20,278 bases of DNA from a virus. Positions 13,771 to 19,379 of this stretch are shown in pieces (position 1 is the first letter of the stretch; every line of letters starts with the position of its first letter). The notes under the pieces are model-generated. The model made no database searches, was not told the origin of the DNA, and saw only the letters and a program-made list of their open reading frames with translations. The translations under genes were made by a program, and so were the position numbers. The stretch covers positions 1-20,278 of IMG/VR virus record IMGVR_UViG_3300048541_000001; one strand, 5' to 3'.

Positions 13771-14469
13771 TTATTTTGTTAAATTAATCTCAACAGCACC
13801 TGAATCTCTTTTCTTCCTATATTCTGCATAGGCTTTACGATCTTCTGGCTTTGTTAAGTCCAAGTCCTGTAGGTTAAAAGGTTTAACAGTTTTACCACCA
13901 ATAGCACTCTGGCTTCCTGAACCAGACAACGACCCTTGACGGAAATGTGGGTTGCTATCTAAAAACTCCTTAACTCGATCTTCAATTGTAAGTAGTTCTC
14001 CTTTTGCGTTATATCGTACATTAGAATTATTATCAACTACTTCTATTCTACCATCATCTGTGTACTTCACTTCATCTTTTAGTAAAGATACGACTTGTTG
14101 TGCGTTGATAGACTTTTCTCTATTAGCAACAGATAGTATTGAATTATCTACTTTTTCTTTTTTGATCTGGTTTTTCATCTTTAACAATTCTTGTTCTTTT
14201 TCAGATAATCTTTCTTGCATTATCTTTTCCAAGTCTTGTTTAGTCTTAGCTTCTTCTAATTGTTTTTGTTTTAAGATTTCTTGTTTTTGCTTTTCTTCTT
14301 CTTGAAGTTTTTTCTCAAACTTATTTTTTTCTGCTTCAAGTCTTGTTTTGATTATGTTGTCTATTTGTTCTTGTGTAAAAGTTTTTTGTTCTGGTGTTTC
14401 TACTTTTACTTCTTCTTTTGTTTCTACTTGTTCGTTTGTCGGCTGAACTGCCTCTGTTTCTTGCGTCAT
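13771..14469 (-). CDS. Capsid scaffolding protein (coiled-coil, DUF4355/gp20-like)
   Basis: This 232-residue protein sits directly before the major capsid gene, where scaffolds usually are. It has a Thr/Glu-rich flexible start, then a long Glu/Lys/Gln coiled coil (about 30-105, e.g. LQEEEKQKQEILKQKQLEEA), a central mixed domain (EVKYTDDGRIEVVDNNSN) and a C-terminal low-complexity Gly/Ser linker (GSLSGSGSQSAIGG) followed by a short basic helix. A basic C-terminal helix commonly binds coat protein in scaffolds. This fits a protein that directs coat assembly and leaves the procapsid. The major capsid protein has no obvious N-terminal delta-type domain, in agreement with a separate scaffold. The ATG has a clear AGGAG site 5-6 nt upstream. 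Confidence 0.82.
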   Translation of the reverse strand: MTQETEAVQPTNEQVETKEEVKVETPEQKTFTQEQIDNIIKTRLEAEKNKFEKKLQEEEKQKQEILKQKQLEEAKTKQDLEKIMQERLSEKEQELLKMKNQIKKEKVDNSILSVANREKSINAQQVVSLLKDEVKYTDDGRIEVVDNNSNVRYNAKGELLTIEDRVKEFLDSNPHFRQGSLSGSGSQSAIGGKTVKPFNLQDLDLTKPEDRKAYAEYRKKRDSGAVEINLTK

Positions 14470-14512
14470 AAGACTCCTATTGGTTAATTGTTGTGCTATA
14501 TCAATATTATTG

Positions 14513-14740
14513 TTAAATTACAATACCCTCTGTTGTAGGGTAAAATTTTTCTATATCTTTTTTTGTTACTTCTTTTTTATTTGAAATCGAAGATTCTAAT
14601 AAGTTAATAAGTTTTTTTTGTAAAATCTTATCTCTATTAATAAAAATTGTTACTAATTCTAATGGTTTTTTAAATGTTTTGTTATACTCAGCTAATAATT
14701 CATTAACTTTAAATTTATCTAATTTATTTTTCTTAACCAT
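14513..14740 (-). CDS. Small basic protein directly after the MuF-peptidase gene; unknown
   Basis: This 75-residue protein (MVKKNKLDKF...TTEGIVI) is lysine-rich and predicted mostly helical, with no signal peptide or membrane span. Its ATG overlaps the end of the MuF gene by 8 nt and has a strong AGGAG site inside that gene, so translation is coupled to it. Its DNA is also very AT-rich (about 20% GC by hand count), like the insert in the MuF extension and unlike the scaffold gene after it. By analogy to polymorphic MuF toxins, where an immunity gene follows the toxin, it is a candidate immunity protein or chaperone. It could equally be an unrelated capsid accessory protein; no family is recognised. 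Confidence 0.7.
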   Translation of the reverse strand: MVKKNKLDKFKVNELLAEYNKTFKKPLELVTIFINRDKILQKKLINLLESSISNKKEVTKKDIEKFYPTTEGIVI

Positions 14741-16730
14741 CTATTTCTCCTATTCGTTGAACCAATGTATCAAACCCTTTTGTAGTATTAGGTGCATAAT
14801 AATTCATTAATTTTCTTTCAATTACTGTCATTTCCTTAATAGGGTTTATACTCATAGATGAGTGTTCTGCCCATGCTTCAAGTGATTGTCCTTGTGTAAA
14901 TTGTTTAATACCAGAATTTTCAAGATAACCGAATTTATTATAGTAATCTACACCATGACCATAACCTAATGATTCTTTTGTTATTGAACCAATGTAGTCA
15001 TTAAATGTTTCACTAAATTGATAATCATAATTTTTGCTAGTATTATCAATAAATTTATTATTTAGTTTTAGCTTAAAATTTAAAACAGCACTATCATTAT
15101 CTGATAAACTATTATTTTTTAAATAATATTTTATTTCATCATCTGTTAAAATATCTGATTTAATTAAGCTATTTTGTTTTTTGTAATATTCATTATATAA
15201 AGGATTAATTTTACCATCAACAACTAATTCAGGTGCATTTTTTTCTATATTTTTTAATTGTGTTTCATATTTCAATTTATTTTTAGAATAATTTCTACTT
15301 AATATTTTATCATCATCAATCATATTTTTAATATTGTATGAAGATAATATCTTGTCAGATGCTTTTTTAGTAGTAATACCTGTGGGTATATTAAACCCTT
15401 TTAAAACAATTTTTCTTTTATTTGGGTTGTTTAATAAATATTCACTTAACTTAATATCTATTCTATGAGTATATTCATGTATCATAGTTAATTGTCTTGC
15501 GTTTTTTGAACTCTGCACACCTAATTCTAATATATCTCCATCAGAAGCACCATAATATGGACTTCTACCTTTTGTTTGCAATATAGATTTAGTAGGTGCT
15601 AATAAACTTATAGCATTTGAATATGGTGTTCTTTCTTTACCAAAACTTTCTTCTAATAAATTTCTTTCTTGATCTCCAATTTCTCCATAAATATTTCTTG
15701 AGATTTCTGTCGGTTTTACATCTGTAATATTTGAAACTGTTTCATCAAATCTATCATCTTCTTCGTACCAATCAGGATTAACATATGAAAACTGATGCCT
15801 ACAATTATAGCCACCTCTTACAATCATAGGGTTTCCACCTTTTTTACCTGACCAACTTCTAGTAGACCAAATATCTTGTATTTCTTCTATAGTAAATAAT
15901 CCATTGGCTCGTTTGTTTAGACTTCCACTTACCATTCTTCTACATAAATCTCTTGTGGTTGGTATCACATCTCCATAATATTTAACAAATGTAAGTCCAG
16001 CATCTTTAGACTTATTAAAGTTTAGAGTGGCATCAAAATCTCTTAATGAATCGTTTAATATTTGACCAGCATATCTTTTCATATTCTCGCCAACTCTTGT
16101 TCTTGCATATTTACTTTGAAGTATCTTAACTGCACTATCTACTCTTGATGCTAACGCTGGGTTATCTCTATTGTTCTTAACATAATCTACCAATCTATTT
16201 ACTGCTGGGTCGCTAGAAGTAGCATAAATTCCATTGATTGATTCCCTTAATTCTTTTTCTAATACAGTAAATTCAGTTCCAACCAATGTGTTTTGATAGA
16301 CTTTATCTGATAGTATTCTTGTGAAGTTATTAGATACATCTTTAAACTGTGTGTAATATTGTTGTTTTAAGTTCTGTACTAAAGCTAAATCTCCCTTAGT
16401 TAATTCTTGAAATTCAGGTGGTATAAGGCCAATAGTTTTAAACTGTCTTTCTACTCTTTTTGCTTGTTCTCCAAATCCTTTTCTAACAACCCTATCTGCA
16501 AATGGTAAATATTCTTTATCAAGTATTGCTTTGATCTTTGGTCTTATTGCTATTGCACTTTGTAACTCAATTAATTTACCAGCTTGTCTTGGAAGTTGTT
16601 GATCAGCAAGTGCTACGATCTGTGCTTCTATCCTATCAAGTGTTTGTGTGAGTTGTTTGTAGTATTCTATTTCGGCTCGTTCTATGCCTTTAATTCGATA
16701 ATTCGTTAAATCTTTTACTATATCTGACAT
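14733..16730 (-). CDS. MuF-type minor capsid protein with C-terminal zinc metallopeptidase-like domain
   Basis: This 665-residue protein is much longer than a plain Mu gpF-like head protein. The N-terminal helical part (1-220) and the region at 225-322 (LNDSLRDFD, LCRRMVSG, GGYNCRHQFSYVNPDW) match the MuF head morphogenesis pattern, including the Cys/His-containing end; these proteins bind near the portal and can be injected. From about 330 an extension contains LTMIHEYTHRID (H418, E419, H422), a gluzincin-type HExxH, and LEAWAEHSS (E618/E622), which resembles the third-ligand ExxAE helix of anthrax lethal factor-like zincins. Between these motifs, residues about 457-577 are Lys/Asn/Ile-rich and coded by DNA of about 17% GC, against about 33% at the 5' end of the gene. 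It could be a virion-delivered toxin or effector (MuF polymorphic toxin type), or a capsid-internal protease. Confidence 0.85.
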   Translation of the reverse strand: MSDIVKDLTNYRIKGIERAEIEYYKQLTQTLDRIEAQIVALADQQLPRQAGKLIELQSAIAIRPKIKAILDKEYLPFADRVVRKGFGEQAKRVERQFKTIGLIPPEFQELTKGDLALVQNLKQQYYTQFKDVSNNFTRILSDKVYQNTLVGTEFTVLEKELRESINGIYATSSDPAVNRLVDYVKNNRDNPALASRVDSAVKILQSKYARTRVGENMKRYAGQILNDSLRDFDATLNFNKSKDAGLTFVKYYGDVIPTTRDLCRRMVSGSLNKRANGLFTIEEIQDIWSTRSWSGKKGGNPMIVRGGYNCRHQFSYVNPDWYEEDDRFDETVSNITDVKPTEISRNIYGEIGDQERNLLEESFGKERTPYSNAISLLAPTKSILQTKGRSPYYGASDGDILELGVQSSKNARQLTMIHEYTHRIDIKLSEYLLNNPNKRKIVLKGFNIPTGITTKKASDKILSSYNIKNMIDDDKILSRNYSKNKLKYETQLKNIEKNAPELVVDGKINPLYNEYYKKQNSLIKSDILTDDEIKYYLKNNSLSDNDSAVLNFKLKLNNKFIDNTSKNYDYQFSETFNDYIGSITKESLGYGHGVDYYNKFGYLENSGIKQFTQGQSLEAWAEHSSMSINPIKEMTVIERKLMNYYAPNTTKGFDTLVQRIGEIDG

Positions 16731-16733
16731 TCA

Positions 16734-18140
16734 TTAAATTTCTTCTTCAGCTACTGTTTCTTGTTGTACTTCGTCTTGTGTGAACTGACCTACTTCTGAT
16801 GCTTGATCTATCTCATCAAATATATCATTTAATTTAGCATCATCATCAACAACTGCTCTAGCAATTTCTTTATCAACTTCTTTAGCAAAAGTTGGAGAGC
16901 CAATGTTTAATGCTTTAGCTTGTTGGAAGTACACTAGGTCACTTGCGTAATCTCTAATGTTAAATGAATCTGGATAATTTATTTCTCCATCAAATGTAGC
17001 ATTTTGGAATAAAGCATATAATCTAAATAGTTGTTCTTCTGCAATTTGTAAGTTGTCAGCTTTCTCAGATAGTCTAGCATTTAATAATTCAAATTCTGTT
17101 TGTAGTGCAACACCAGATGTTATCCCTGTCTTTTGAGTTCTTACTGCACCTGTATGTGCAATCCTATTTATAGAATCTACTTTGTTATTTATAGACTCCA
17201 TAATAGCTTGTAAGTTCTGGCCAGATGGTTGAAGTAAATATGGTTTTAAGTTTGGCTCTAATTCATCAGGCATTTCTATTACTGCACCAGCACCAGCACT
17301 TGCATTTACGCTTGGAGTTTTAACTAATGATGGGTGGTTAGTTAATCTGATTAGTTGTTCCATTTCAGAGTATTCGTTGTAGATAGCTTTTTGTAGATCA
17401 GCAATATCAGTTAAATCTGATTGACCAATTCCTCTTTTGTGAGATTTAGAATTGTATAAAATAACTGCTGGTATTTTGCCAATCATGTTTGGTACAGTAT
17501 CTATCAATCTAGGCTCTGATCTTTCTTCCATGTAAATAGTATCTATTCGATCAGGATACCAAATTCTCATGTAAGTTCCCCCGTTCTTATCTACTTCTTC
17601 TCTAACTTTTAAATAGTTTAATTCATACTTACCATTAACTTGTCTTTCAAAGTTCCAATCTAAAACATTCTCTGGAGTAACGATTGATAAGTATGGTCTA
17701 ATATCTTGATCTAATTCTTCTGCTCTAGTGTTTGTAGTTACATTTGGTTTATCTAACATTAAAAAACAATGACCATAAATAGAAGCATAGTTTTGTGCTT
17801 GTTTAATTACTGAGTTTAAATTGTTACCCTCAAGGTCAGCATCTTTTAAGAATGATTCTAAACTAGGTTCATCTTGCATAGAACCAAAATCTCTACTTGG
17901 TCTAACTCTAAATAAGAATGATGAATAAATTTGAATAATATTTTTACAATGATTATCGCATGGAGTATTAGCAAGTCTTTGATTAAACTCGTTGTCTAAT
18001 TCTAAATTATATCTGTTTAGATATTGGCCAATCATATAGTCATAGCCACCATTATATGATCTAATGTAATACTCCCAATTATTAATTGTTTCGGAATAGT
18101 CTTTGTGAGTGTCTATTGCTTGATCTCTAGTGTATGCCAT
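16734..18140 (-). CDS. Portal protein
   Basis: This 468-residue protein most likely forms the dodecameric portal ring at one capsid vertex, through which terminase packages DNA and to which the neck attaches. Position directly after terL and before a MuF-type gene is the classical portal position. Length is typical. The C-terminal helical region (SGVALQTEFELLNARLSEKA and the following helix) resembles the conserved long-helix region of portal proteins. The N-terminal region is rich in aromatic and acidic residues (WEYYIRSYNGG, DYMIGQYL). It may belong to the DUF4055 or SPP1 gp6-like portal group; the precise family is uncertain. The C-terminal end is acidic (EEEI). The stop is followed after 3 nt by the MuF gene. 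Confidence 0.88.
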   Translation of the reverse strand: MAYTRDQAIDTHKDYSETINNWEYYIRSYNGGYDYMIGQYLNRYNLELDNEFNQRLANTPCDNHCKNIIQIYSSFLFRVRPSRDFGSMQDEPSLESFLKDADLEGNNLNSVIKQAQNYASIYGHCFLMLDKPNVTTNTRAEELDQDIRPYLSIVTPENVLDWNFERQVNGKYELNYLKVREEVDKNGGTYMRIWYPDRIDTIYMEERSEPRLIDTVPNMIGKIPAVILYNSKSHKRGIGQSDLTDIADLQKAIYNEYSEMEQLIRLTNHPSLVKTPSVNASAGAGAVIEMPDELEPNLKPYLLQPSGQNLQAIMESINNKVDSINRIAHTGAVRTQKTGITSGVALQTEFELLNARLSEKADNLQIAEEQLFRLYALFQNATFDGEINYPDSFNIRDYASDLVYFQQAKALNIGSPTFAKEVDKEIARAVVDDDAKLNDIFDEIDQASEVGQFTQDEVQQETVAEEEI

Positions 18141-18143
18141 AAA

Positions 18144-19379
18144 TTACTTCATTGTCCATCTTGTAGGAGCATTAAATCTTGCCTGAGTAGTTAATGGTTT
18201 TAAATAATCAATCATATAACCAAGTGCGTCATTCATATGATCGAATCCATCTTCCTTATCAGGAATATTTGTATTCTCCTTGTATATTTGTCTTTGTAAA
18301 CCTTTTATCAATGTTTTGCAAGAATGTGAAACAAAAATGTGTCTTTCGCCATTAGAATCTTTTAGCCTTGCATTTACTGAATTGACTCTATCTCGTATTG
18401 CTGGGTGTTTGTGTTTGACCTTAACTTTAAAACCACCATTTTGTAAAATAGATAAATCAGTTCTACCACCAGCAGAGGTTTTTCTTTGCCTACAAGCTGG
18501 GTCTGGATAAATAGTAATAGGCATTTTAGTTCCATATCTATCTTTTATTTCTTGCACCATTTCATCAGTATTAGAGCCATATATAACTATCTCATCTATA
18601 AAAAAAACTTTATCTTTTTCTAATTGACTTACACAAGCTGACATTGGGTCAACATTCATATCTAATCCAATGTGTAAAGGTTTTGTCCAATCTATTTGTT
18701 TTTTTACAACATTATCTACAGGGTGGAAGTTATAATAGACAGCACCAGCATAGTTCTCAAATGTACCCTCAAACTCTTGTCTAAAGGTTCTAATATCTAT
18801 ATCCTGTTTAGCTTGTTCTATTTCCTCTGATGTAACCATACCACCCTCAATAGTCGTATACTGAAAAGATTCCCAATCATTATCTTGCTTACCTTTTAAG
18901 TATAATTCATAAGACCAATTACCATATCCCTTTGGAGTACCACAAAATAATACATGGCCTAATCTATCAGATATACTTGCTCTTAATACTTCATACCAAG
19001 TTCGCTTATCAATATCTGCAAACTCATCTAATATTAAAAAGTCTAAGCCTGTTCCTCTAAGACTATCATAGTTATCAGCACCCTTTAATGAGATTGTACT
19101 ATTCGATTGTCTTATCGTAATAGTCATTGTAGTTTCGTTTATATCCTCAATCCAATTAAACTGATTAAGCATTTCTTTAAGAGTACCCCATACGATCTCT
19201 TTAGCCATTTTAAATGTGGGTGCTACATACCAGATTCTTCTATTTGGCTGACACGCATATTTCATCATCTCAGTTACAGCTAAATAAGTTTTACCAAATC
19301 TACGACCTGATATTAAAACTCTGAACCTTGATTTGCTTGATGATACTTTAAGCTGGGGTTTTGTGAGAGTGATCTTCAT
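18144..19379 (-). CDS. terL: Terminase large subunit (ATPase-nuclease)
   Basis: This 411-residue protein is the DNA-packaging motor: it cuts concatemeric DNA and pumps it through the portal into the procapsid. Visible motifs are Walker A GRRFGKT (25-31), Walker B LILDEF with D118/E119, and the coupling motif FCGTPKG (145-151). The C-terminal RNase H-like nuclease shows GLDMNVDP around D240, YPDP (291-294) and DGFDHMNDALGY with D380 and D384. The length fits compact terminases. The ATG at 19379 lies inside the end of the preceding gene and has no clear Shine-Dalgarno, yet no later Met would retain Walker A. No small terminase subunit is recognisable in the window; it may lie further upstream. 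The portal gene follows after 3 nt. Confidence 0.95.
   Translation of the reverse strand: MKITLTKPQLKVSSSKSRFRVLISGRRFGKTYLAVTEMMKYACQPNRRIWYVAPTFKMAKEIVWGTLKEMLNQFNWIEDINETTMTITIRQSNSTISLKGADNYDSLRGTGLDFLILDEFADIDKRTWYEVLRASISDRLGHVLFCGTPKGYGNWSYELYLKGKQDNDWESFQYTTIEGGMVTSEEIEQAKQDIDIRTFRQEFEGTFENYAGAVYYNFHPVDNVVKKQIDWTKPLHIGLDMNVDPMSACVSQLEKDKVFFIDEIVIYGSNTDEMVQEIKDRYGTKMPITIYPDPACRQRKTSAGGRTDLSILQNGGFKVKVKHKHPAIRDRVNSVNARLKDSNGERHIFVSHSCKTLIKGLQRQIYKENTNIPDKEDGFDHMNDALGYMIDYLKPLTTQARFNAPTRWTMK

Follow-up and report, generated by a model that had tools for sequence, protein, structure and literature searches.

In MuF polymorphic toxins, a MuF-type N-terminus encoded after the portal gene carries a variable C-terminal domain, and a small open reading frame (ORF) lies immediately downstream. 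According to the survey of Jamet et al. 2017 (PMC5576092), 20% of 191 MuF toxins are metallopeptidases, and MuF toxins are stated to be exclusive to temperate phages, none with a known toxin domain being found in virulent phages; the temperate association of toxin genes in the phage set of that study had p = 0.055. Here we analyse a gene of the same organisation from an IMG/VR virus record (IMGVR_UViG_3300048541_000001), in which a MuF-type head protein is fused to a predicted zinc metallopeptidase (zincin) domain and followed by a small partner ORF. The whole 20,278-base record is called the window below. A reading made beforehand from the sequence only had held that this combination in an AT-rich, marine-like phage might be undescribed. 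The fusion as such is not new: MuF proteins with a metallopeptidase domain and a small ORF downstream form a known, already published kind (PMC5576092).

The locus resembles these toxins in all three traits of organisation. Unlike them, as they are reported from temperate phages and prophages in that source, the pair of zincin and partner ORF, or cassette, was present here in 20 records without a match to Phage_integrase. A further difference is that HExxH is found in all C-termini counted on this backbone (55/55). A second group for comparison is formed by the MPTase zincins of polyvalent proteins (Iyer et al. 2017, PMC5512222), phage-borne domains for which packaging and delivery have been predicted. 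The same paper describes, for one MPTase clade, an Asp three residues past HExxH, which is also found here; the MPTase family (PF18818) gave sub-threshold matches only, and the present domain is a single terminal one with a partner ORF.

Some cultured phages of the ocean bacterium SAR11 (pelagiphages) share this organisation: they encode a MuF-like protein, a zincin of the class designated class 3 and a small overlapping ORF. Their zincin belongs to another class than that of the window, and the annotation of the proteins goes no further than hypothetical or putative head morphogenesis protein. As far as searched, what is new is the zincin family of the window, without a threshold match in Pfam, PHROGs or NCBIfam, together with the zincin-only repertoire of the backbone, the measured co-inheritance of zincin and partner, and their occurrence in apparently non-temperate SAR11 phages. 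Literature searches on MuF, metallopeptidase or polymorphic toxin in pelagiphages or SAR11 phages returned no paper treating the system, as judged by titles and abstract openings. The partner ORF at 14513-14740 and the exchange of cassettes had escaped the sequence-only reading, as had the lack of matches to integrase.

The MuF-zincin gene and its predicted active site

The features of the fusion gene are as follows.

14733..16730, minus strand: MuF-zincin fusion gene, 665 amino acids (ORF; directly after portal and TerL)
15756..16730, minus strand: N-terminal MuF-like head-protein domain, residues 1-325 (relatives, BFVD matches)
15699..15761, minus strand: disordered linker, residues 324-344 (predicted local distance difference test, pLDDT, below 50); it holds the 5' swap junction at 15755
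14736..15698, minus strand: predicted zincin domain, residues 345-665 (models; structural re-alignment)
15465..15479, minus strand: HEYTH (H418, E419, H422), predicted to supply zinc ligands and the general base (invariant in 41/41 relatives, on helix 409-433; roles by analogy with the zincin family)
15456..15458, minus strand: D425, Asp of HExxHxxD (invariant in 41/41)
14940..14957, minus strand: H592, Y596 and Y597 (GHGxxYY), perhaps part of the active-site pocket (each 41/41)
14877..14879, minus strand: E618, predicted third zinc ligand (41/41; helix 613-628)

The residues invariant in all 41 relatives include H418, E419, H422, D425, D473, D578, H592, Y596, Y597, E618 and A621. The earlier reading had located HEYTH at residues 418-422 (window 15479-15465) and LEAWAE with E618 and E622, and it had both residues and coordinates right; LEAWAE corresponds to residues 617-622, and the interval 14733-15740 that it gave corresponds to residues 331-665. 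Of the two downstream glutamates that it named, only E618 is conserved; position 622 varies (N in 26, E in 9 and Q in 6 of the 41). The candidate for the third zinc ligand is therefore E618.

Part of the relatives had been fetched with patterns that hold active-site residues, and their HExxH counts are therefore partly by construction. Loci picked by the MuF part alone were examined separately (160 loci, of which 28 were set aside as duplicates, 9 because the gene was cut and 1 because it had no CRH motif): HExxH was present in 55 of 55 C-termini, and 67 genes had no C-terminus. A chance motif was ruled out by this invariance in relatives and by shuffling, HExxH arising in 0.18% of cases when residues 323-665 were shuffled 20,000 times.

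In a full-length AlphaFold2 model built with 44 relatives, the N-terminal part was helical, the linker 324-344 disordered and the C-terminal domain confident, with HEYTH in the middle of helix 409-433 and E618 on helix 613-628. The full-length search of the PDB proved uninformative, as helical bundles matching residues 1-246 filled the list, and the C-terminal domain was therefore modelled alone (41 relatives; pLDDT 92.9, predicted template-modelling score 0.91). In this model three short strands precede the HEYTH helix, and E618 lies on a late helix. The 152 best chains from Foldseek were then re-aligned. Rows 1 to 16 of this second-look alignment were anthrax lethal factor (best Z 8.9 over 158 residues at 3.9 Å, chain residues 568-776, which we take to be the catalytic domain); being one protein, these rows lend each other no independent support. 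They were followed by the Pro-Pro endopeptidase PPEP-3 (Z 6.7) and the putative zinc peptidase 4l7a (Z 4.4), and the top 23 entries consisted of lethal factor, Pro-Pro endopeptidases and one putative zinc peptidase. A profile search with the zincin family of the window was in weak agreement, with lethal factor at E 0.0037.

The model has HExxH on one helix and a Glu on another further along, and lethal factor and the Pro-Pro endopeptidases are its best structural neighbours in the second-look alignment. They differ from the present domain in that sequence similarity is marginal, the Foldseek match is not significant and the carrier here is a phage head protein. The comparison with lethal-factor-type zincins that had been anticipated therefore came out as expected for the ranking of the second look, and not for Foldseek significance. 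We consider the predicted zincin fold of the C-terminal domain well supported by the models, and its assignment to the zincin core fold, which rests on a moderate Z, moderately so.

Family profiles gave a more distant picture. In the search for MuF and ATLF families that had been suggested beforehand, the window protein matched neither Phage_Mu_F (PF04233) nor ATLF (PF07737) above the curated cut-off. ATLF matched 14 of 15 members of class 3 (best E 6.9e-6, listed by E-value without scores), and the scored matches reached 16.8-19.7 bits, under the 27.4-bit cut-off; ATLF membership is not established. For MPTase-PolyVal the window protein gave no match and 4 of 41 relatives did (best E 0.0051), the scored ones with 12.7 and 17.3 bits, under the 27.5-bit cut-off. 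When the profile of the window zincin family was compared with that of class 3, only 50 columns around HExxH aligned (probability 57.5, E 1e-4); judged from these profiles, common descent of the zincin classes is likely but not proven.

As for the N-terminal part, it is 63.5-89.0% identical to four pelagiphage isolates, and the whole model matched 24 BFVD entries at E <= 0.001, among them several labelled as minor capsid or head morphogenesis proteins; these matches were given without query range. Phage_Mu_F exceeded its cut-off of 29.6 bits in three of nine scanned relatives with homologous zincins (L100, 55.6 bits; L127, 60.7; L129, 60.3). The head morphogenesis family phrog_4728 spans MuF and zincin in two of them (L100 residues 11-726, L127 residues 115-660). 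That the N-terminal part is a MuF-type head protein is supported by gene position, relatives and structural matches to minor-capsid proteins. With the lethal-factor-like fold added, the same lines of evidence bear out the fusion that the first reading had proposed.

A sequencing or assembly artefact was ruled out by an identical copy of the gene in another contig (L002) and by purifying selection on the C-terminal part (ratio of non-synonymous to synonymous substitution rates, dN/dS, 0.19 and 0.09 against two relatives). Irregular copies were seen elsewhere: the zincin is interrupted at L008:2662-5143 and L024:654-2853, and MuF and zincin lie on separate ORFs at L130:4973-6780. In L008 the small ORF is shortened and the scaffold ORF short as well, so that sequencing errors are likely there.

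Pairing with a small ORF and exchange of the cassette

Three further features delimit the cassette.

14513..15755, minus strand: swappable cassette, zincin and partner ORF (5' junction 15755, 3' junction near 14503-14518)
14513..14740, minus strand: partner ORF of 75 amino acids, predicted cognate inhibitor or immunity protein, overlapping the zincin gene by 8 nt (co-occurrence, co-inheritance)
14746..14751, minus strand: AGGAGA, resembling a Shine-Dalgarno site for the partner ORF and lying within the end of the zincin gene (sequence reading)

A small ORF of 51-80 amino acids directly follows 78 of the 80 distinct genes with a C-terminus (rows that were cut at the 3' end, duplicate, devoid of the CRH motif or with less than 150 nt downstream were excluded). 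Both exceptions are broken zincins: in L024 the small ORF lies further down, and in L008 it is shortened to 54 amino acids. Conversely, 68 of 69 genes without a C-terminus also lack the small ORF, and the scaffold gene begins 8-17 nt past their stop in 66 of the 68 measured. In the ATLF-like class 3, fetched separately, the small ORF was present in 66/66, the MuF part being recognised by the profile of this backbone in 55.

The small ORF starts on the last base of the zincin stop codon (offset 0) in 26 of 79 cases and 8 to 11 nt past the stop in 5 of 79. These variable offsets, together with its own Shine-Dalgarno-like site and ATG, ruled out that it is a frameshifted tail of the zincin protein. 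Most small ORFs are acidic (71/79).

Pairing extends to class. Scans of viral contigs showed that related MuF backbones bear zincins of four classes unconnected by BLAST, or none, and the zincin class matches the small-ORF class in 78 of 79 cases; the exception, L103, is a contig that ends where the proper small ORF begins. We then compared identities over 36 of these 79 loci, namely those in which the MuF part spans 300 amino acids or more and exceeds 60% identity with that of the window, and the scaffold reaches 180 amino acids or more. Zincin identity followed small-ORF identity (rho 0.82, reached by 0/500 permutations), and neither MuF identity (0.03, 103/500) nor scaffold identity (0.005, 192/500); MuF and scaffold were correlated with each other (0.40, 0/500). 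The correlation of zincin and small ORF was also found within classes (0.81 for 27 genes, 0.77 for 23).

Direct signs of exchange were obtained from close pairs. MuF identity above 95% went with C-terminal identity below 30% in 34 of the 630 pairs of the 36 loci; in one such pair (L034 and L013) the MuF parts are 99.7% and the scaffolds 90% identical, and the zincins 10%. The cassette junctions were placed by blastn of the flanks against L034, L031 and L013, of another class or subclass, and L065, without a C-terminus. In the cultured phages Kolga and Aegir, a MuF part sharing 89% identity with that of L100 is joined to a zincin of another class, so that swapping occurs on a second backbone too. 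The zincins of L127 and L088 had no match among cultured phages.

Some local observations may be added. A stretch of 37 nt (window 14778-14814) is 97% identical to L013, which has another zincin subclass, over conserved LMNYYAPNTT codons, and is a possible internal recombination point. At L169:3568-5762, a MuF gene without a C-terminus lies 444 nt before the scaffold, against the usual 8-17 nt, possibly with the remnant of a lost cassette in between.

Phage lifestyle and proposed function of the pair

The fused domain with its conserved active-site set and zincin-like predicted fold, the near-obligatory partner ORF, the co-inheritance of the two and the swapping of the cassette are computed features of this locus. 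A conserved delivery part, an exchangeable enzymatic tip and a cognate small gene correspond in pattern to an effector accompanied by its immunity protein. We consider it fairly probable that the locus encodes a MuF-type effector/immunity pair, that is, a packaged and probably injected zinc endopeptidase of lethal-factor/PPEP-like zincin fold with its cognate inhibitor.

We infer packaging, injection, proteolysis and inhibition, as well as a target, along the following lines. In the producing cell, the small protein, translationally coupled, would bind the zincin and hold it inactive. By way of the MuF domain the peptidase would enter the head close to the portal, with the inhibitor left outside. 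At infection, the peptidase would be ejected with the DNA and cut a protein in the new cell, which could be a defence protein, a housekeeping protein or a protein of a competing phage. Pairing and joint swapping would be expected because such a peptidase must be silent in the producer and active in the next cell.

The phages concerned gave no indication of lysogeny in the searches made. Phage_integrase matched 0 of 20 cassette-bearing records (11 from IMG/VR, HTVC026P, 7 further records and Kolga), in all of which zincin and small ORF were confirmed, and 0 of 5 records without the cassette; nor was there a match in the window record, probably a fragment. HTVC019P, the positive control, matched at 7.2e-25. 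Resolvase matched 0 of 15 records and rve 0 of 12. Many of the records searched may be incomplete, and some phages may integrate by other routes. On this basis the cassette-bearing SAR11 phages look like exceptions to the temperate-only rule for MuF toxins. A paired and swapped zincin system in phages of SAR11 and relatives that lack integrase matches challenges that rule, and the purpose of an immunity gene in such phages becomes a question.

In another study (PMC8163748), some SAR11 phages are described as persisting in culture while lacking lysogeny genes of a known kind; infections by the isolates of that study, which isolated Kolga without singling it out, often reached a steady state, and the authors suggest that genes of unknown function might control it. 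We tentatively raise the possibility that integrase-less marine phages, having no lysogen to protect, use a polymorphic capsid-delivered peptidase with cognate immunity in phage-versus-phage competition or in setting non-lytic steady-state infections of SAR11. If the former is true, a resident with the matching small protein should survive an incoming zincin, and a mismatched one should not. Two cultured phage populations, HTVC026P and Kolga/Aegir, carry the system and are open to testing; the MuF-zincin proteins of HTVC026P and Kolga are gp30 and gp59, and their small proteins gp31 and gp60.

Several observations weigh against the effector/immunity interpretation. Concerning the enzyme, the window protein is above no Pfam, PHROGs or NCBIfam threshold, and Foldseek of the domain against the PDB gave no significant match (best E 3.5). 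The Z of 8.9 is barely above the uninformative level of the tool, with 158 of 329 residues aligned, and three lower lethal-factor rows aligned instead to N-terminal residues of that protein (within 30-257). As for exchange, two of the four zincin classes hold only 2 and 1 genes, and 58 of the 69 genes without a C-terminus are close HTVC111P relatives from one scan, which leaves few independent events. Within classes the zincin also tracks MuF identity (0.47 and 0.49), so that shared descent contributes to the pairing, and in one class the small ORF does so too (0.65). Regarding the partner, no known immunity family (10 tested in Pfam) was matched by the small ORFs; that of the window is net positive (17 K+R, 10 D+E), and its dN/dS of 0.49 and 0.93, from 21 and 5 changes, does not establish constraint. 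An immunity protein is also less obviously needed in a phage without lysogeny, and the small ORF could equally encode a folding partner or a packaging adaptor.

This last point leads to an explanation in which the zincin is a virion-delivered effector and the small ORF its chaperone or packaging adaptor. Any cognate binding partner would agree with the strict pairing, the matching of classes and the coupled translation, and one class-3 partner ORF (L030:2170-2349) has an N-terminal SHOCT-like stretch, below the cut-off (E 0.0022). Against this, the mean net charges of the two partners are opposite (-7.0 and +9.6), and we regard this explanation as unlikely.

Alternatively, the zincin could be a head-maturation peptidase that cuts scaffold, capsid or MuF protein in the procapsid, the small ORF being a timing inhibitor. 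The gene does sit between portal and scaffold, and polyvalent-protein zincins have been proposed to process their own polypeptide (PMC5512222). Moreover, phrog_595 ('head maturation protease') matched 6 of 10 scanned relatives (L100, E 7.3e-22; L127, 4.6e-18; L129, 7.2e-18; L096, 2.2e-6; L103, 6.9e-5; L124, 0.0011), extending past HExxH in the last four. The strongest of these matches, however, lies within residues 39-348 of L100, before HExxH at about 450; neither phrog_595 nor phrog_4728 matches the window protein, and their labels are annotations, not tested functions. The isolates HTVC111P, HTVC112P and HTVC202P have no zincin domain, yet have matching scaffold and capsid genes, and zincin identity is uncorrelated with scaffold identity, as in L034 and L013. 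Because isolates free of the domain exist and similar scaffolds bear unrelated-looking zincins, procapsid use is less likely than injection, and we hold it to be unlikely.

Finally, a zincin fold kept for a structural or adsorption role, with no peptidase activity, would agree with the lack of a known substrate or activity and with the divergence of zincin classes to about 10% identity, and is very improbable in view of the invariant H418, E419, H422, D425 and E618 (41/41) and of HExxH in all 55 C-termini of the MuF-fetched loci.

Gene order and nearest phages

On the minus strand of the window, the order is TerL, portal, MuF-zincin gene, 75-amino-acid ORF, scaffold, major capsid protein and further genes. 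The neighbours referred to above are the following.

18144-19379, minus strand: TerL (terminase family match)
16734-18140, minus strand: portal (SPP1_portal match), directly upstream of the MuF-zincin gene
13771..14469, minus strand: scaffolding protein, outside the cassette (phrog_2303, E 1.1e-9)

In two zincin-free isolates, antisense ORFs lie between portal and MuF (L083:5427-5885, HTVC111P gp32; L085:5639-5851, HTVC202P gp29). Pattern-seeded scans of the GTDB genome collection, which distant relatives can escape, yielded no bacterial relative of the zincin among 55 candidate stretches and none of the MuF part among 29.

All nine records matched by megablast of the window were Pelagibacter phages. 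Pelagiphages are the nearest named relatives, HTVC111P matching 57% of the window at 84.7% identity; by these matches the window phage is related to HTVC111P-type pelagiphages. Another stretch, at 845-2846, resembles the podovirus-type pelagiphage HTVC019P (80.6% identity over 2% of the window), which points to modules having been exchanged between pelagiphage groups.
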